Shown here: positions 30,202 to 37,984 of the stretch, piece by piece
Layout of the letters: each line of letters starts with the position of its first letter
Numbering within the stretch: position 1 is the first letter of the stretch
Origin: Gimesia sp.
GTDB lineage: Bacteria; Planctomycetota; Planctomycetia; Planctomycetales; Planctomycetaceae
DNA length: 64,000 bases
Direction of reading: 5' to 3'
Assembly: GCA_002706765.1 (NCBI GenBank)
Contig: PAJV01000066.1
Span: 1-64,000 of the forward strand
Notes under the pieces: model-generated
The model's database searches: none
What the model was told of the DNA's origin: nothing
The model's input: the letters and a program-made list of their open reading frames with translations, nothing else
Made by a program: the position numbers and the translations under genes

Positions 30202-31383
30202 TCAGTGACGACTGTGATTCTGCTGGCGATATTCGCGGGGGGACATGCCCGTCAGGCGGCCGAACATGCGGATCATGGCTTCCTGATGTTGAAAGCCGCA
30301 ACGGGCTGCAATCTGCGAAATGGTCAGGTTCGTCTCCTGCAGCAGTTTGATGATCCGCTTCAGTTTTTCCTGGCGAATTTCTGCAGCGGGGGAACGATGC
30401 AGGGCTTTCTGAAAGCGATGCTCCAGGATCCGCCGCGATACATTCAGATGATCAGTCAGATCCGAGACCTGCAACGCTTCCTGCGCATGTTGACGAATGA
30501 AATCAATGGCTTCGCGAACGAGGTCATCATCGGCAAACAGCGTATCGGTGGAAGCACGTTCTTCAATCGACAGCGGGGGAATCAGAATCGGTTCCGCGGG
30601 CGGCGACTCTCCCTGAATCAACAGGTCCAGCAGTTGTGCCGCCTCGTAACCCACGACATGCGGTGCCTGATTAATACAGGAGAGAGGCACGGGAGACAGC
30701 GCCGACATCAGGGGATCATGTTCGATACTGAGGATCGCCACCTGGTCGGGAATTTCCAGATGATGATTTACACAGACCGTCGCCACTTCGCGACCAACCT
30801 TGCTCGACCAGACCAGCAGCGCCACCGGCTTGGGCAGTTCCCGCAGCCACTCCTTTAAACGTTTCTGCTGTTTCTCGTAGTCGTCTTCCTTCGTCAGTTC
30901 GTAATACGGAAATTGAAAACAGACCCCTTCAGACTGCTCAATCAGCTCCTGAAATTCGTTCTCGATCGTCGGCAGATATTTCAACGTGGGATCGGGGCCA
31001 ATATAGCCACAGGAGCGGAATCCTTTTTGCAGAAAGAAGTCTGCCGCCAGCCGGGCACACGCCCGTTCGTCTGAAATCACTTTGGGAATTTTTGTGGAAT
31101 GCTTGCCCAGCCACGAGACATTCACCGCGGGCAGCTTCCGCTGCAGGATCGACTGCTGAATGCGGGCATCGGCCAGACGACAGATTGTGCCATGCCCGTT
31201 CCAGGAAGCGGGTAACCTCAATTGTTCCTGCAGACCGCGGAACTCAATCCAGAAATCCCAGCCCCCCTGCTCCAGCGCATAGTCGGCGATCCCCTGAATG
31301 ATCTGGCGACTCCAGTCACTGGAAGTCTGTATGAGTAAAGCCACTTTGCGTCGTTCGGGAAATCTCACGTGTGCTCGTTTCAT
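30202..31383 (-). CDS. XylR-type regulator (LacI-like sensor plus AraC HTH)
   Basis: About 393 residues from the ATG at 31381-31383, close to the length of E. coli XylR (392). The frame is open to 31437. The N-terminal two-thirds (RRKVALLIQTSSDWSRQIIQGIADY ... EIPDQVAILSIEHDPLMSALSPVPLSCI) is a periplasmic-binding-protein-like ligand domain as in LacI regulators. The C-terminal ~100 residues hold two AraC HTH motifs: ALQVSDLTDHLNVSRRILEHRFQ and TISQIAARCGFQHQEAMIRMF, ending GMSPREYRQ. Such proteins usually sense sugars. Here it is divergent from the phosphonate genes with a 298-bp gap, so it may control them; the ligand could then be an organophosphonate, a notable departure from the family. 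Confidence 0.9.
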   Translation of the reverse strand: MKRAHVRFPERRKVALLIQTSSDWSRQIIQGIADYALEQGGWDFWIEFRGLQEQLRLPASWNGHGTICRLADARIQQSILQRKLPAVNVSWLGKHSTKIPKVISDERACARLAADFFLQKGFRSCGYIGPDPTLKYLPTIENEFQELIEQSEGVCFQFPYYELTKEDDYEKQQKRLKEWLRELPKPVALLVWSSKVGREVATVCVNHHLEIPDQVAILSIEHDPLMSALSPVPLSCINQAPHVVGYEAAQLLDLLIQGESPPAEPILIPPLSIEERASTDTLFADDDLVREAIDFIRQHAQEALQVSDLTDHLNVSRRILEHRFQKALHRSPAAEIRQEKLKRIIKLLQETNLTISQIAARCGFQHQEAMIRMFGRLTGMSPREYRQQNHSRH

Positions 31384-31681
31384 GACAGGGTATCGATGGA
31401 AAGCCGCTCTTTTCAGACCTGTATGATAGCTTCCCACTACTTAAGGATGGTAAAGATGAGATGAAGACGATGTAAATATTATCAATTATACTGCGTATTT
31501 TGTCATTGTATTTTGAAAAATTTCCTCGATACTTTTCCCTGTACAATGAAGCTTGCGACAGGTCTGGCGGGAAGTTTCTCCTGTGTTCCCGCCAGACCGT
31601 CTGCAGGCTTCCTGTCTCATTCCAGGCAACCGCGGGTCAGTCCTGCCCTGTTTTCCCGATACTCATTCTGTTTCTGAAACC
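31384..31681. promoter_or_regulatory. Divergent control region of the phosphonate locus
   Basis: AT-rich gap between the regulator and the FAD oxidoreductase, containing the strong inverted repeat at 31561-31598. Possible -10 elements (TACAAT at 31542) lie just before the repeat, but I see no well-spaced -35. Confidence 0.5.
31561..31598 (+). promoter_or_regulatory. Perfect 13-bp inverted repeat in phosphonate operon leader
   Basis: GGTCTGGCGGGAA (31561-31573) and TTCCCGCCAGACC (31586-31598) are exact complements around a 12-nt loop. It ends 84 nt before the first gene. No T-run follows, so it is not a simple terminator; it could be an operator of the divergent regulator or an RNA leader structure. 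Confidence 0.65.
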
Positions 31682-32854
31682 ATGTCGACTCCAACTTATC
31701 AGAGTGAATACGATGTCATCGTGATTGGTGGCGGCGTGCTCGGTGCCTTTCATGCCTACTTCGCCATGCGCCAGGGGCTGAAGACGTTATTAATTGAACG
31801 CAATGTCTTTCCCCAGCAGGCGTCTGTCCGTAACTTCGGGTTGATTATTCCCAGCGCCATGCCCGCAGGCCGCTGGCGCGACCGGGCAATCGCTTCCTGC
31901 GAGATCTATTCAGAACTCTGCGAGTTTCTCGACGTTCCCCTGCGTCGGACAGGGACCCAGTACCTGGCGCACACAGCAGCAGAAGCGGACTTCCTGAAAC
32001 AGATGGCGGTTGCCTGTGAAGACTCCTTATGTCCGGCGGAATACTATTCCGCAGAAGAAACCATCCGTTCCAGCTGCTGCCTGAATCCGGAGTTCTGTCA
32101 AGGCAGCCTGTTTTTCCCCCATGATCTGCAACTGGATCCCGACCAGTTTTTTCGCGCCTTGATCAACTGGATCGCGTGTACATCAGACTGCGATTATCTG
32201 CCGAACACGACCGCGATCACCGTGGAATCACAGGAAAGCCTCGCGTGCATCAGAACCTCTTCGGGCAGAACATTTCAGGCACGCCATACCTTTGTCTGTT
32301 CCGGAGCCGATCTGCAGACGCTGTTCCCCGAGATCTATGCGTCGCGAAATCTGCAATACTGCAAACTGCAGATGCTGAAACTCTCCAATCCTGAAAATCG
32401 TACACTGGGCACCAGTATCGCCTCTCCCATTGCGCTCACACGCTATCCCGCCTTTCTGAAGGCACAATCCCTGCAAGGCGTTTCCCTGCCGGCCCCCGAT
32501 CCGGTTCTGCAGGAACGTGGCATCCAGATCTGGATGACCCAAAATCAGAATAACGAATTCATTCTCGGCGATTCGCACGCTTACTCAACCGACGCGCCCA
32601 CTGAATTTCTGTCAGCCGAGGTGGAATCACACATTATTAATTATGCGCGAAAGATGTTCGTCAAACTGGAATTTGAAGTGATTGATCGCTGGTGTGGCAT
32701 TTATACTGAAGCACAGTCCGCCGGTTTATTCCAGCAGACCCTTGACGACCGGATCCATTTAATCACTGGGATTGGCGGCAAGGGAATGACCACCGGCCCG
32801 GGACTCGCCAGAGAAAATATCCGCCAACTCTCCCTTATCCAAAGCAGGCCATGA
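31682..32854 (+). CDS. FAD-dependent oxidoreductase of phosphonate loci (TIGR03364-like)
   Basis: 390 residues from the ATG at 31682, where the product begins MSTPTYQSEYDVIVIGGGVLGAFHAYFA, placing the FAD-binding GxGxxG-type loop near residue 16; the upstream open frame to 31553 covers the leader repeat and is not coding. A DAO-fold core follows, and GIGGKGMTTGPGLA near the C-terminus closes the flavin site. The clade is known to sit beside phosphonatase-like genes and has been proposed, and for relatives reported, to oxidise aminophosphonates at the amino-bearing carbon. First gene of the phosphonate run; its stop overlaps the transporter start (ATGA). Expected product is an aldehyde phosphonate feeding PhnX. 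Confidence 0.88.
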   Translation: MSTPTYQSEYDVIVIGGGVLGAFHAYFAMRQGLKTLLIERNVFPQQASVRNFGLIIPSAMPAGRWRDRAIASCEIYSELCEFLDVPLRRTGTQYLAHTAAEADFLKQMAVACEDSLCPAEYYSAEETIRSSCCLNPEFCQGSLFFPHDLQLDPDQFFRALINWIACTSDCDYLPNTTAITVESQESLACIRTSSGRTFQARHTFVCSGADLQTLFPEIYASRNLQYCKLQMLKLSNPENRTLGTSIASPIALTRYPAFLKAQSLQGVSLPAPDPVLQERGIQIWMTQNQNNEFILGDSHAYSTDAPTEFLSAEVESHIINYARKMFVKLEFEVIDRWCGIYTEAQSAGLFQQTLDDRIHLITGIGGKGMTTGPGLARENIRQLSLIQSRP

Positions 32855-34209
32855 TGTCGAAGTCTCCGAATCGCAACTGGCAATTCATGACCCTGCTGAG
32901 CCTGTTTCTGGGCTACGTCGGTTATTACATTTGCCGTTCCAACCTGGCGGTCGCAACGCCGCTGCTGCTGAAAGAGTACGAGGGAGTCGGCATCACCAAA
33001 GTCGACATCGGGACCATCGCCTCTGTGGGAGTGATGCTGTATGCCCTGGGGAAAATCATTAACGGTTACCTGGCCGATTTTCTCGGCGGTCGGCTGATGT
33101 TCCTGACCGGGATGATCGCGTCCGTCCTGTGTTCGATCTGGTTTGGACTGGCAGGTGGCTTAACCCTGTTCGTCATCATCTGGGCCGTCAATCGATTTTT
33201 TCAGTCGATGGGCTGGGTGGCGCTGGTAAAAACCGCTTCGCGCTGGTTTCCCGTGCAATGGCATGCGACCGTGATGGCGATCCTTTCGCTCTCGTTTCTG
33301 TTCGGCGATGCGTTTGCCCGCGTATATCTGGGCAGCCTGATCATGCTGGGAGAACGTGATACTTCACTCAGCTTTCTAGCGGACTGGCGGACTGTCTTTT
33401 TCATCGCCGCAGGCACACTGGGACTGATCACGGTCTTTGTCTATTTCAGTTTGAAGTCCAGTCCCATTGATGTCGGCCTGGAAGAACCGGAGGCGAATCC
33501 GCTGAATGTTTACGGCGCGGAAGGGAATCATGCAGAGCGGATCTCCATTAAAGAGGTACTCAAGCCGCTGTTTGCCAGTCCCCTGTTCTGGCTGATCTGC
33601 ATCATGAATTTCAGCCTGACCCTCGTCCGCGAAACCTTTAATTTCTGGACCCCCACCTTCCTCAACGAAGTCGCAAAGTTCGATATCGGCCAGGCCGCGG
33701 TGGGCAGCATGCTGTTTCCACTGGTGGGAGGCTGTTCTGCTCTGCTCGCGGGGGTCACCTCGGATCGTCTCAAGGGCAGACATGGTCGCGTCGTACTGCC
33801 CAGCCTGATCCTGCTGGTGCTGTCGCTGATCTTACTGACCACGATCGATGTTTCGGGGAAACCCTATCTGGCGCTCACACTGCTGTCGCTGGTCGCCTTT
33901 TTTCTGATGGCGCCGTATTCGTTTCTCTCTGGCGTCATGGCCATTGACCTTGGTGGAAAGCGGGGCTGCTCCACTGTCGCCGGGCTCGTTGATTCCGCCG
34001 GCTACCTGGGAGCTATTCTTTCCGGTCACACTGTCGGAATGATTGCAGAATACTATGGCTGGAAGATGGCGTTCGGCGGACTGGCGGGAATCTGCTGCAC
34101 TGCCGTCATTGCCGGAGTGATTTACTGGCGGATTCAGGAACGGCAGATGAACCTGGCGCAACTCTTACCCACGGAACCTGAACCGGAGGAATCTCATGCC
34201 CCTCAATGA
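32851..34209 (+). CDS. MFS transporter, organophosphate:phosphate antiporter (GlpT/UhpT) type
   Basis: 452 residues with 12 predicted membrane helices. LFLGYVGYYICRSNLAVATPLL is the first-helix signature of the OPA family, and GKIINGYLADFLGGR, SMGWVALVKTASRWF and FMAPYSFLSGVMAIDLGGKRGC follow the GlpT/UhpC pattern. OPA carriers exchange phosphorylated solutes for phosphate across the inner membrane. Placed between phosphonate-degradation genes it probably imports an organophosphonate such as 2-aminoethylphosphonate, in place of the more common ABC importer. The start overlaps the previous stop by 4 nt and the end overlaps the HD gene by 14 nt. Confidence 0.9.
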   Translation: MMSKSPNRNWQFMTLLSLFLGYVGYYICRSNLAVATPLLLKEYEGVGITKVDIGTIASVGVMLYALGKIINGYLADFLGGRLMFLTGMIASVLCSIWFGLAGGLTLFVIIWAVNRFFQSMGWVALVKTASRWFPVQWHATVMAILSLSFLFGDAFARVYLGSLIMLGERDTSLSFLADWRTVFFIAAGTLGLITVFVYFSLKSSPIDVGLEEPEANPLNVYGAEGNHAERISIKEVLKPLFASPLFWLICIMNFSLTLVRETFNFWTPTFLNEVAKFDIGQAAVGSMLFPLVGGCSALLAGVTSDRLKGRHGRVVLPSLILLVLSLILLTTIDVSGKPYLALTLLSLVAFFLMAPYSFLSGVMAIDLGGKRGCSTVAGLVDSAGYLGAILSGHTVGMIAEYYGWKMAFGGLAGICCTAVIAGVIYWRIQERQMNLAQLLPTEPEPEESHAPQ

Positions 34210-34780
34210 TCCGGCTGCGATCGTCGCTGAAATACGACAACGTTTCCAGGAAAAAGGGAACGAGATGTACGCTGGCGAAGCGATCTCGCAGACAGAGCAT
34301 GCCTTGCAGGCCGCGTTCGCAGCCGAACAGGCGGGTGAGTCGGCAGAACTGATCGTCGCCGCGCTACTGCATGATATCGGTCACCTGCTGCACAAGCATG
34401 CTGAAGATTGCGCCAGCCAGGGGATCGATGACCTGCATGAACGCATCGGCGCACAATGGCTGGTTCGCTACTTCCCGAAAGATGTCACCGAACCGATTCG
34501 GCTGCATGTTGCTGCCAAACGCTACCGCTGTGCCACCGATGCCGCATATGCGTCCCGGCTTTCCCCCGCTTCGGTGCTCAGCCTGCAGTTGCAGGGCGGC
34601 CCCTTTGACTCGGTAGAACAAGAAGAGTTCGAACACAACCCCTGGTCGCAGGCAGCACTGCGTCTGCGCAACTGGGATGAAGCCGCAAAGGTACCAGACT
34701 TCGCAACCCCCGAACTCGAATATTTTTTAACGTATGTCCGGAGCGTCCTGCAGCAGCAGACTCCGGATCCTGGTGAATGA
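34196..34780 (+). CDS. phnZ: PhnZ-like HD-domain phosphonate oxygenase
   Basis: 194 residues, HD superfamily. Residues match the di-iron ligands reported for PhnZ almost position for position: His35, His59-Asp60 (LLHDIGH), His81, His104 and Asp161, with Tyr25 and Glu28 in MYAGEAISQ corresponding to the Tyr24/Glu27 pair of the substrate-gated site, and Lys108. PhnZ splits (R)-2-amino-1-hydroxyethylphosphonate with O2 into glycine and phosphate. GGAGG lies 5 nt before the ATG. It overlaps both neighbours, so all are translated together. PhnY, which makes the hydroxylated substrate, is not in the window, so the substrate may be imported directly or made elsewhere. The symbol is given by similarity. 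Confidence 0.88.
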   Translation: MPLNDPAAIVAEIRQRFQEKGNEMYAGEAISQTEHALQAAFAAEQAGESAELIVAALLHDIGHLLHKHAEDCASQGIDDLHERIGAQWLVRYFPKDVTEPIRLHVAAKRYRCATDAAYASRLSPASVLSLQLQGGPFDSVEQEEFEHNPWSQAALRLRNWDEAAKVPDFATPELEYFLTYVRSVLQQQTPDPGE

Positions 34781-35583
34781 AAGAAATCATGAAAACGGAA
34801 AACATCAAACTTGTCATCTTTGACTGGGCCGGCACCACAATTGATTATGGCTGCTTCGCACCGATCTCTGCGTTTATCAAAGCCTTCAAAGCCTGCGGCG
34901 TAGACCTGACGCCACAACAGGCACGCGGTCCAATGGGTCTGCATAAACAGGATCATATTCGCAGCCTGTTTCAACTGGAGGAAATCGCCGCACAGTGGGA
35001 GTCGCTGCATCAGCGTGCCTGGACCGAACAGGATGTGAAACACATCTACGAAACCTTCATGCCGCTGCAGATCGAAGAAGCGAAACTGTTTACCGATCTG
35101 GTTCCCGGCCTGTGTGAGACGATTTCGATTTTACGCGAGCAGGGTATTAAAATCGGCTCCACCACCGGTTACCCGCGGATTGTGGCGGAACCGGTTCTGG
35201 AAGCCGCCCGCGCACAGGGATATGCACCCGACTTCAGCATGTGTGCGGACGAGGTGCCTGCCGGACGGCCTGCTCCCTGGATGATTTATCGCAACATGGA
35301 AGCACTGAGCGTCTTTCCCCCTTCAGCAGTCGTCAAAGTGGGCGATACCGTACCCGATATCGAAGCCGGCTTGAATGCGGGTACCTGGACCGTGGGTCTG
35401 ACCCAGACAGGCAGCGAAGTCGGGCTGACAGTCGCAGAGTTCGAAGCCTTAAGCGATGAACAGAAAGCGGATCTGCTGGCAACAGCGGAAACCAAACTCA
35501 AAAACGCCGGCGCCCACTTTGTGATTCCCACACTCGAGGGACTGCCTGGCATCATTGATGAGCTGAATGAGAGAGAGAACTGA
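34777..35583 (+). CDS. phnX: Phosphonoacetaldehyde hydrolase (phosphonatase)
   Basis: 268 residues of the HAD superfamily. The nucleophile motif is FDWAGTT (Asp16), the Schiff-base lysine lies in [10 protein letters not shown] (Lys57), and [10 protein letters not shown] plus [17 protein letters not shown] complete the HAD motifs. PhnX hydrolyses the C-P bond of phosphonoacetaldehyde to acetaldehyde and phosphate. The start overlaps the PhnZ-like stop by 4 nt (ATGA); an ATG at 34789 is an alternative. PhnW follows 1 nt after the stop. Together PhnW and PhnX form the classic 2-aminoethylphosphonate route. Confidence 0.96.
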
Positions 35584-35584
35584 A

Positions 35585-36715
35585 ATGGACGCGGACATTC
35601 CCTACCTGTTATTGACTCCCGGCCCTCTAACCACCACCCGCAGTGTGCGCGAAGCCATGCTGGCCGACTACTCGACCTGGGACGTGGATTACAACCAGCG
35701 CGTCATGGAAATCCGTGAGCGACTCGTTCGCCTGGCGACGGACTCTGACAATTATACGGCTGTCCTGATGCAGGGTAGCGGCACATTTTCTGTCGAAGCG
35801 ACGATCGGATCGGTCATCCCGCCGGACGGTAAATTGTTCGTCATTTCCAATGGCGCGTATGGCAGCCGGATTGCCCAGATCGCACGTTGTCTGAAAATTC
35901 CTCTGCAGGAGCTGGCGTTTTCTGAAACGGAACCTCCCGATCTGAATCAGATCCGCGCAACGCTCGCCGCTGATTCAGAGATCACGCATGTGGCCATGGT
36001 ACACTGCGAAACGACGACCGGCATGATCAATCCCGCCCGGGAAGTCGGCCAACTGGCGCACGCAGCCGGCAAGGACTACATCCTGGATGCCATGTCTTCG
36101 TTTGGAGGCATCCCGCTTTCGATGGAAGACGATCACGTGGATTATCTGATCTCGTCTGCTAATAAGTGTATTCAGGGTGTGCCCGGCTTCGGTTTCGTGA
36201 TAGCGCAGCAGCAGAAACTGGAACAGACCAGGGGCCTGGCGCGTTCTCTGAGCCTGGATCTGTATGATCAATGGTATGAAATGGAACACAAGGGAGGCAA
36301 ATGGCGTTACACGTCTCCCACGCATGTCGTCAATGCCTTCCTGCAGGCGCTGAATGAACTGGACGCTGAAGGGGGTGTTTCCGCAAGGCATGCACGCTAT
36401 CAGGAAAACCAGACCACGCTGGTTTCAGAAATGCAGAAACGGGGTCTGCAGACTTTACTGCCTCGCGAACTGCAGTCGCCGATCATAACGTCGTTTTATT
36501 ATCCCGAGTGTCCCGCATTCCAGTTCAACCAGTTTTATGAGGAATTGAAACTGCGACGCTACGTGATTTACCCGGGCAAAATCAGTCAGGCAGATACGTT
36601 TCGTATCGGTAATATTGGTCATGTCTTTCCGGCAGATATTATGAATCTGGTAGAACAAATTGAACAGACGCTCAATAAACTGGATATCCGTGTGCCCCCT
36701 CAGCGGGTTCAGTAA
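35585..36715 (+). CDS. phnW: 2-aminoethylphosphonate--pyruvate transaminase
   Basis: 376 residues of class V aminotransferase fold. [19 protein letters not shown] is the family start, and [34 protein letters not shown] and [13 protein letters not shown] (PLP-binding Lys194) follow. It moves the amino group of 2-aminoethylphosphonate to pyruvate, giving phosphonoacetaldehyde and alanine. The frame is open from 35567, but the ATG at 35585 preceded by GAGAGAG fits the usual start. Last gene of the tightly packed run; the dehydrogenase follows after 165 nt. Confidence 0.96.
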
Positions 36716-36880
36716 GTCCGAAAATAATCGAACCGTACACTTTCCGTTTACCGCATTGCTGCTTATAAAAAATAGTACAAATCTGACCCGACGCACGCAT
36801 CAATGTGATCGATTCGAAATTCTGCTATCTGAACAGCACTTCATTCAGATAGTATTCACTGCCAGCAGTATTAGTGTTTT

Positions 36881-37984
36881 ATGATGAGCAATCCCTGCAC
36901 TTCTGTCATCCTGCACGACGATGATCGAAAGTTAGAATATTCCCGCGTTGAACGACCTCTGCTGAAACCGGGTGAAGTACTGGTCGAAATTCTGTGTTGC
37001 ACCATCTGCGGAAGTGATCTGCATACGTTCGAGGGAACACGCTCCACCCCCTGCCCGACCATTCTGGGGCACGAGATGGTGGGACGCGTGGTCGATCTGC
37101 ATCCCGAAGCCACGGTCAAAGATTTTCTGGATCGCCCGGTGAAAGCCGGTGACCGGATCACCTGGTCGGTCGCGGTCTCCTGCAAAAAATGCGAGTTCTG
37201 TCGACGCGGGCTGACACAGAAATGTACGCGACTCTTTAAATATGGCCACCAGAAACTGGACGCACAGAATTACCTGAGTGGCGGGCTGGCCAGTCACTGC
37301 CATCTGGTCAAAGGCACAACCATTTTTAAAGTCCCCGCATCGCTGCCCGATCTGATTGCCAGCCCGGCGAACTGTGCTACCGCGACGGTCATGGCGGCCT
37401 TTCGGCTCGCAGGTGACATCCAGGACAAATCGGTTTTAATTCTGGGTGCGGGAATGCTGGGCGTGACTGCCTCTGCGGTCGCCCATGCAAAACAGGCGGG
37501 CACTGTCTTTGTGACCGATATCGATCCGGAACGTGTCCGACGCAGCCTGGAGTTTGGTGCCCGACATGCATTGCTGGTGAAAAAAGAACAGCCCCTGCAT
37601 CAGGAAATTCTGCATCTGACAGAAGGGCGTGGCGTGGACTTTGTGTTCGATATGACGGGGGTCCCCGAAGTCATCGAGAGCGGCCTGGAAACTCTGGCGA
37701 TTGGCGGATCCCTGATCCTCGTGGGATCCGTTTATCCGGCACGCCCGGTTCAACTTTCTGCAGAGACGATTGTCCGCAGACTACTGCGTATCGAAGGCAT
37801 TCATAATTACGTGGATCTGGATCTGGCGAATGCCCTGAATTTTCTCGAACGTTTTCAGAACCGCTATCCGTTTTCCAGGCTCTGCGAGCAAACGTTTGCA
37901 TTGAGTGACATCAAGGCTGCCTTTGAAGAATCGGCTCACCGTCGTTCGTATCGTGTGGCCGTCCTGCCTGATCCGACGGCCTGA
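36881..37984 (+). CDS. Zinc alcohol dehydrogenase of phosphonate loci (TIGR03366-like)
   Basis: 367 residues, MDR family. Catalytic zinc ligands in CTICGSDLHTFEG and GHEMVGRV; structural zinc cysteines in CKKCEFCRRGLTQKC; NAD(P)-binding Rossmann loop in VLILGAGMLGVTASAVA. A clade of such dehydrogenases is recurrently found in phosphonate clusters and is thought to reduce or oxidise an aldehyde or alcohol phosphonate, or the acetaldehyde released by PhnX. Separated from phnW by 165 nt with AT-rich sequence, so it may also have its own promoter. Ends 42 nt before the convergent HExxH gene. Confidence 0.88.
   Translation: MMSNPCTSVILHDDDRKLEYSRVERPLLKPGEVLVEILCCTICGSDLHTFEGTRSTPCPTILGHEMVGRVVDLHPEATVKDFLDRPVKAGDRITWSVAVSCKKCEFCRRGLTQKCTRLFKYGHQKLDAQNYLSGGLASHCHLVKGTTIFKVPASLPDLIASPANCATATVMAAFRLAGDIQDKSVLILGAGMLGVTASAVAHAKQAGTVFVTDIDPERVRRSLEFGARHALLVKKEQPLHQEILHLTEGRGVDFVFDMTGVPEVIESGLETLAIGGSLILVGSVYPARPVQLSAETIVRRLLRIEGIHNYVDLDLANALNFLERFQNRYPFSRLCEQTFALSDIKAAFEESAHRRSYRVAVLPDPTA

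Follow-up and report, generated by a model that had tools for sequence, protein, structure and literature searches.

Which phosphonates does an operon serve when it encodes both hydrolytic and oxidative cleavage of the carbon–phosphorus (C–P) bond, and what is the role of the zinc dehydrogenase at its end? We addressed this question for a gene run at positions 30202 to 37984 of a 64,000-nucleotide stretch of DNA (the window) from the planctomycete Gimesia sp. (GenBank assembly GCA_002706765.1, contig PAJV01000066.1). We consider it fairly probable, judging from protein families and gene company, that this is a phosphonate-catabolic operon with four substrates. Three would enter a hydrolytic pathway at phosphonoacetaldehyde (PAA), and the fourth, 1-hydroxy-2-aminoethylphosphonate, would be cleaved oxidatively. 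One of the three entries would be a TIGR03366 zinc dehydrogenase acting on 2-hydroxyethylphosphonate. The dehydrogenase is the part of the operon of most interest for laboratory work.

The run comprises six genes read from the forward strand and, diverging from them, the gene for a XylR-type regulator. It had been picked out in a preliminary description of the window as a phosphonate-degradation locus, and all seven genes were confirmed in place. Five (the FAD oxidoreductase, HD oxygenase, PhnX, PhnW, and dehydrogenase) pass curated NCBIfam cut-offs; the carrier and regulator were named through domain models, the carrier also through its solved relative GlpT (1pw4). The first operon gene encodes an FAD oxidoreductase (31682 to 32854) that passes the TIGR03364 cut-off (304.5 versus 285.1 bits) inside a phnWX cluster and is thereby a member of the PbfD family. 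It is followed by an OPA-type carrier of the major facilitator superfamily (MFS; 32851 to 34209) and a PhnZ-like HD-domain diiron oxygenase (34196 to 34780; TIGR03276, 229.8 versus 214.6 bits). Next come phnX, for PAA hydrolase (34777 to 35583; TIGR01422, 350.6 versus 220 bits), and phnW, for 2-aminoethylphosphonate (AEP):pyruvate transaminase (35567 to 36715; TIGR02326, 566.3 versus 400.8 bits), an adjacent pair that represents the PhnWX pathway. The dehydrogenase gene is last (36881 to 37984; TIGR03366, 390.0 versus 328.1 bits). Successive genes from the FAD oxidoreductase gene to phnW overlap by 4, 14, 4, and 17 bases, and a gap of 165 bases separates phnW from the dehydrogenase gene; in two genomes of the genus (L090 and L094), a 4-base overlap takes the place of this gap.

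In the pathway that we propose, the OPA-type carrier would import small phosphonates, PhnW would convert AEP to PAA, the PbfD-type oxidase would form PAA from N-methyl-AEP, and the dehydrogenase would form it from 2-hydroxyethylphosphonate. PhnX would then split PAA into acetaldehyde and phosphate. The HD oxygenase would cleave (R)-1-hydroxy-AEP, taken up ready-made, into glycine and phosphate, and the XylR-type sensor would regulate the run. These reactions, the uptake, and the regulation are predicted from family membership, gene order, conservation, and neighboring genes. The preliminary description spoke of two parallel routes, and hydrolytic (PhnW/PhnX) and oxidative (PhnZ-like) C–P cleavage are indeed encoded together; a more accurate description is a single hydrolytic route with three entries, accompanied by one oxidative route. 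Missing from that description were the PbfD identity of the FAD enzyme and the probable role of the dehydrogenase as a third PAA entry.

Several elements of this scheme are already published: the pairing of PhnZ with phnWX in the absence of PhnY*, the oxidation of N-methyl-AEP by PbfD, and the uptake of AEP by an OPA-type carrier. PbfD-family members oxidize N-methyl-AEP to PAA, and Planctomycetota are named among their carriers (PMC10590968). The phnWX clusters with pbfD described there resemble the window in combining PhnW, PhnX, and a PbfD-family FAD enzyme. The window has, in addition, an HD oxygenase and a TIGR03366 dehydrogenase; a text search counted no mention of TIGR03366 or HpnZ in that paper. 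Clusters of phnWX with phnZ and no phnY* number 15 of 1,186 (PMC8154272, Table 1). They likewise pair hydrolytic and oxidative enzymes, but PbfD and the dehydrogenase are features of the window that the passages on those clusters do not discuss. The same source notes that 1-hydroxy-AEP is not properly processed by PhnW and PhnX. What our analysis newly suggests, from gene context, is the assignment of the TIGR03366 dehydrogenase. The literature that we searched, which included few subscription journals, gave no stated function for TIGR03366 and no catabolic 2-hydroxyethylphosphonate dehydrogenase.

To define the gene context of this family, we searched genome contigs with a profile from a 20-sequence alignment and retained the top 80 among 348 relatives, a set that leans toward proteins similar to the planctomycete query. 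Neighbors at the 80 loci were labeled by BLAST with set thresholds. A PAA consumer (phnX, a PhnX-like gene, or phnA) is present at 48 of the 80 loci, across several phyla: phnX or a PhnX-like gene at 37, and phnA at 12, 10 of these with phnY. Carriers (DUF5690 or OPA-type) occur at 54 loci, phnW or pbfD at 28, and HD genes at 19. Among the 48 loci with a PAA consumer, 25 have no phnW, pbfD, or HD gene. A strict count, restricted to TIGR01422-type phnX and phnA, gives 39 of 80 loci, 18 of them without those three genes. The order carrier–phnA–phnY–dehydrogenase recurs in five acidobacterial-type operons (L205, L208, L213, L219, and L246), phnA–phnY–dehydrogenase–carrier in two loci (L188 and L189), and DUF5690–phnX–dehydrogenase in two more (L204 and L217). 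PhnA was confirmed by cut-off at L188, L192, and L236, the phnY products of the five acidobacterial-type operons are 61 to 63% identical to that of L192, and all seven context dehydrogenases that we scanned pass the TIGR03366 cut-off. At a number of these loci PAA consumers adjoin the dehydrogenase without another recognized PAA-forming enzyme; an alcohol oxidized to PAA would fit, and the predicted substrate is then 2-hydroxyethylphosphonate.

This company is not shared by the next most similar dehydrogenases: none of their 23 loci (292 kb of DNA read, against 1,127 kb for the 80 TIGR03366 loci) lies near phnX, phnA, HD, pbfD, phnW, or DUF5690. We also searched the 25 genomes of the key loci for PhnW. 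Beyond the five genomes described below, 12 gave nothing and 8 gave matches of 109 to 133 bits; sub-cut-off matches of this kind also occur in 9 of the 14 named control genomes. None of the five genomes with the carrier–phnA–phnY–dehydrogenase order has a PhnW above the cut-off. The 25 key loci also contain 71 unlabeled neighbors, of which we scanned 20 (about 340 to 520 amino acids). These yielded neither a DAO oxidase nor a class-III aminotransferase; one is a class-I/II aminotransferase, one is SelA-like, and four gave no match. We know of no other PAA-forming family among them.

An ordinary alcohol dehydrogenase could instead reduce the acetaldehyde released by PhnX to ethanol, leaving the operon with only the amine entries into PAA plus PhnZ. 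The structure model of the window enzyme (pLDDT 91.4) is that of an ordinary zinc dehydrogenase, nearest to 1vj0 and also close to threonine dehydrogenases; it gives no hint of the substrate. This fold, together with the 37 loci that have phnX or a PhnX-like gene, would suit such a role. However, phnA is present at 12 loci, accompanied by phnY at 10, and because phnYA operons yield acetate, a role in acetaldehyde reduction is disfavored. Several operons, moreover, consist only of a carrier, a PAA consumer, and the dehydrogenase, with no other source of PAA. We regard acetaldehyde reduction as improbable.

The enzyme might also run in reverse, from PAA to 2-hydroxyethylphosphonate, a direction that has been put forward for phpC of certain AEP-catabolic operons (PMC9381506). 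The chemistry is reversible, and phpC provides a precedent, but PepM was not found in the window genome, and in several operons the dehydrogenase would be the sole PAA-forming enzyme (PepM was not sought in those genomes). The reverse direction seems to us a slim prospect.

A third alternative links the dehydrogenase to the oxidative route: it would oxidize or racemize 1-hydroxy-AEP to feed the HD oxygenase, much as PbfF serves PbfA in Alphaproteobacteria. PbfF (PMC12366243) is likewise an ancillary enzyme of dehydrogenase fold that feeds the PAA hub, and it thus sets a precedent, but it belongs to another protein family (pfam02826), is tied to pbfA, and was inactive when tested on 2-hydroxyethylphosphonate. 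Within the order, an HD gene is found in 71 of the 83 genomes with the dehydrogenase, as this alternative would predict. In the wider set, the stretch read around 36 of the 48 PAA-consumer loci lacks an HD gene, and this absence disfavors a role tied to 1-hydroxy-AEP. A tie between dehydrogenase and HD gene therefore holds within the order and fails beyond it, and we give the racemase-like role little credence. Two loci (L241 and L250) have the order dehydrogenase–phnY–phnW–HD, and the stretch read there contains neither phnX nor phnA.

Several observations weigh against 2-hydroxyethylphosphonate as the substrate. At 32 of the 80 loci there is no phnX, PhnX-like gene, or phnA in the stretch read, some of which lies on short contigs, and 13 of these 32 have no recognized partner at all. 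Ten of the 37 genes counted as phnX are nearest to the L236 protein, which passes the TIGR03351 PhnX-like model (221.2 versus 218.9 bits) and not TIGR01422, and the substrate of TIGR03351 proteins is only proposed. Two phnY products, those of L192 and L202, fall just under the PAA-dehydrogenase model (629.5 and 605.7 versus 635.65), and that of L188 best matches a betaine-aldehyde dehydrogenase. Four of the 25 key-locus genomes (those of L188, L195, L230, and L263) have a PhnW above its cut-off, and a fifth (that of L217) has one split in two; the genome-wide search covered PhnW only. Among the 23 control loci, L274 has an OPA-type carrier close by. Last, within the order the dehydrogenase tracks HD and phnX equally (71 of 83 genomes each), and five genomes have the dehydrogenase and HD without phnX. 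Since the two links are equal there, they are separated in the wider set only.

Weighing both sides, we lean slightly toward reading TIGR03366 as a widespread 2-hydroxyethylphosphonate dehydrogenase. Combined with an OPA-type or DUF5690 carrier and with either phnX or phnY-phnA, it would provide a route for this natural phosphonate, free of C–P lyase and of ethylene, in planctomycetes, acidobacteria, and verrucomicrobia, and perhaps also in bacteroidetes, where the hydrolase is PhnX-like. At one of the phnA loci, genes for a glutamine-synthetase-like protein and an iron alcohol dehydrogenase (L188, 11839 to 14384) follow the phnA–phnY–dehydrogenase–carrier run.

The operon is fixed in its genus. 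All six operon genes are present in 14 of 16 same-genus genomes; a fifteenth has the first three genes before its contig ends (L091), and no strong HD match was obtained in the sixteenth, which is 74% complete. Presence in 15 of the 16 rules out an operon special to this genome. For the order, we surveyed 170 genomes and read flanks of up to 8 kb around 93 strong HD matches in 85 genomes. No PhyH (phnY-type) gene is present in the flank at 80 of the 93 loci; at the other 13, the PhyH gene belongs to a methylphosphonate pair in 12 cases and is of a different type in one. A frequent form elsewhere in the order combines DUF5690, dehydrogenase, HD, a distant pbfD (26 to 34% identity), and phnX, without phnW, and a few loci (L082, L103, and L106) have carrier, HD, phnX, phnW, and dehydrogenase. 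The preliminary description had called the arrangement distinct for a planctomycete. It is instead fixed in the genus, variant forms of the gene set recur across the order, and PhnZ with phnWX but no PhnY* is already published.

Counted by genome, a non-methylphosphonate HD gene is present in 81 genomes of the order, phnX in 87, pbfD in 78, and TIGR03366 in 83. The 81 HD genomes also have phnX in 75 cases, pbfD in 70, and TIGR03366 in 71. These counts are non-independent through shared ancestry, and the sets were compiled by hand: neither TIGR03366-like second copies of 214 to 250 bits nor genomes G059 and G069 were included among the carriers of the gene, and the HD set leaves out four genomes with a methylphosphonate-type HD only (G051, G085, G099, and G100). 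The genes also occur in other combinations. One genome (G050) has the dehydrogenase with pbfD and phnX and no HD, such a grouping, DUF5690 included, being seen once (L175), and at four loci (L169, L171, L172, and L174) dehydrogenase and DUF5690 stand away from the other genes.

Which substrate does the HD oxygenase cleave? The protein passes the TIGR03276 cut-off and, aligned to TmpB (6npa) and PhnZ (4mlm), keeps the positions that we take to be metal ligands, as expected of a PhnZ. The usual partner, PhnY*, is not in the run and was not recognized among the PhyH proteins scanned in the genome. Other results sit less easily with plain 1-hydroxy-AEP. The protein is under the cut-offs for TmpB (NF049941, 190.6 versus 300) and for the hydroxymethylphosphonate oxygenase PhnZ1 (NF052439, 156.2 versus 300), and the HD tree, with PhnZ and TmpB both on long branches, did not fix its place relative to them. 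It might act mainly on N-methylated 1-hydroxy-AEP or another alpha-hydroxyphosphonate. Its score is nearer TmpB than PhnZ (144.6 versus 108 bits), and the PhnZ of Gimesia maris cleaves two substrates (PMC10574752), but the TmpB and PhnZ1 cut-offs are failed, and the genome has a separate PhnZ1. We view such a substrate as possible, if somewhat doubtful; the question is independent of the role of the dehydrogenase.

The preliminary description had also stated that PhnY was absent. This stands for the run, where NCBIfam and domain scans of the proteins found no phnY, and it needs amending for the genome (7.9 Mb in 78 contigs, listed as 100% complete). There are ten PhyH matches genome-wide. One of them is PhnY1, the methylphosphonate hydroxylase (539.7 versus 500); on contig C24, apart from the operon, it lies with DUF5690 and its own PhnZ1 (400.7 versus 300) in a methylphosphonate locus (L005, 737 to 3476). 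The same pair forms the methylphosphonate pathway of G. maris (PMC10574752). The locus is separate from the operon, and its HD enzyme falls in a different clade from that of the operon. Another PhyH match is an ectoine hydroxylase (L004, 1372 to 2310; 382.4 versus 336.5). The scans covered nine of the ten matches, leaving out a 124-amino-acid piece (L010). Seven further PhyH proteins, none within the run, received no name above a cut-off, and for six of these seven no phosphonate enzyme was listed among Protein Data Bank structures. We considered whether an AEP-type PhnY* had been overlooked among the seven; none was recognized, we saw no NCBIfam model specific for AEP-type PhnY*, and its presence among them appears unlikely. 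The predicted uptake of a ready-made hydroxylated substrate, as suggested in the preliminary description, fits an HD gene without PhnY.

The carrier is the likely route of entry. Its best model is TIGR00881 (202.5 bits, yet under the OPA subfamily cut-off of 407.75), and it matches GlpT (1pw4) with an E value of 3.8e-31. In this alignment, R29, K68, and R260 of the carrier correspond to GlpT R45, K80, and R269, presumably phosphate-site residues; at the position of GlpT H165 the carrier has F, a point against the proposed scheme. AepP, the OPA-type AEP permease of Pseudomonas putida (PMC8316502), is a GlpT-like major facilitator whose gene accompanies those for PhnWX or PhnWAY, and it resembles the window carrier by family and gene company. 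The window protein is a likely importer of small phosphonates, in keeping with the MFS uptake proposed earlier.

The absence of the usual ATP-binding cassette (ABC) importer also held. No PhnD-type importer was found in the genome, both PF12974 matches being ModA and a TAXI-TRAP protein. AepX-type importers were sought via PF13343 only, which gave one weak match (25.7 versus 24.6 bits) with no NCBIfam match at E 1e-50. A phnY together with an ABC phosphonate importer elsewhere had been named as the finding that would overturn the preliminary description; a phnY does exist elsewhere, but of the methylphosphonate type, and without a recognized PhnD-type importer.

DUF5690 (PF18943) occurs at 30 of the 80 TIGR03366 loci (for example, L238, 6645 to 7967) and adjoins PhnY1/PhnZ1. 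Its predicted fold matches MFS structures, with G6PT/SLC37A4 at the top, and a profile comparison with OPA-type carriers was weak (probability 21). DUF5690 is a candidate phosphonate carrier family.

The regulator gene (30202 to 31437, reverse strand) encodes a periplasmic-binding-protein-like sensor fused to an AraC-type helix-turn-helix (Peripla_BP_3, PF13377, 94.5 bits; AraC-type domain, PF12833, 77.4 bits; PBP1_XylR, PF22177, 32.5 bits). It is present in 14 of the 16 genus loci, the window included, and missing in L090 and L094. A non-coding block between regulator and operon (31448 to 31510), a candidate promoter or operator region, is well conserved across an alignment of the 14 regulator-bearing loci. 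It is followed on the forward strand by a leader hairpin (31561 to 31598) with a covarying 13-pair stem, six pairs of which show changes on both sides; 93.4% of cells are paired, against 30.8 to 52.2% in slid controls. The hairpin is present in all 14 regulator-bearing loci, and the same pattern was not found in the two without a regulator. Because L090 and L094 are sister genomes in the HD tree, this joint absence counts as one event. The hairpin lies between two possible starts of the FAD gene, TTG 31553 and ATG 31682, so the ATG is the more likely start. An exact-pattern search placed the hairpin at a single site in the genome, and Rfam returned only sub-threshold microRNA matches there. 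In function, the hairpin could be either a leader element at the RNA level or a palindromic operator. Searches for promoter- and terminator-like sites gave no excess over shuffled sequence. Two other genera have XylR-type regulators 42 to 45% identical to that of the window, located close to HD and DUF5690 genes (L095, 3688 to 5013; L088, 13780 to 14973).

C–P lyase breaks 2-hydroxyethylphosphonate down to ethylene (PMC5649143), and its component PhnJ was not found in the window genome. If our assignment is true, the dehydrogenase route to PAA would free the phosphate and carbon of 2-hydroxyethylphosphonate without ethylene and without C–P lyase. It would also give a function to the TIGR03366 family, which so far is only "proposed" by name.

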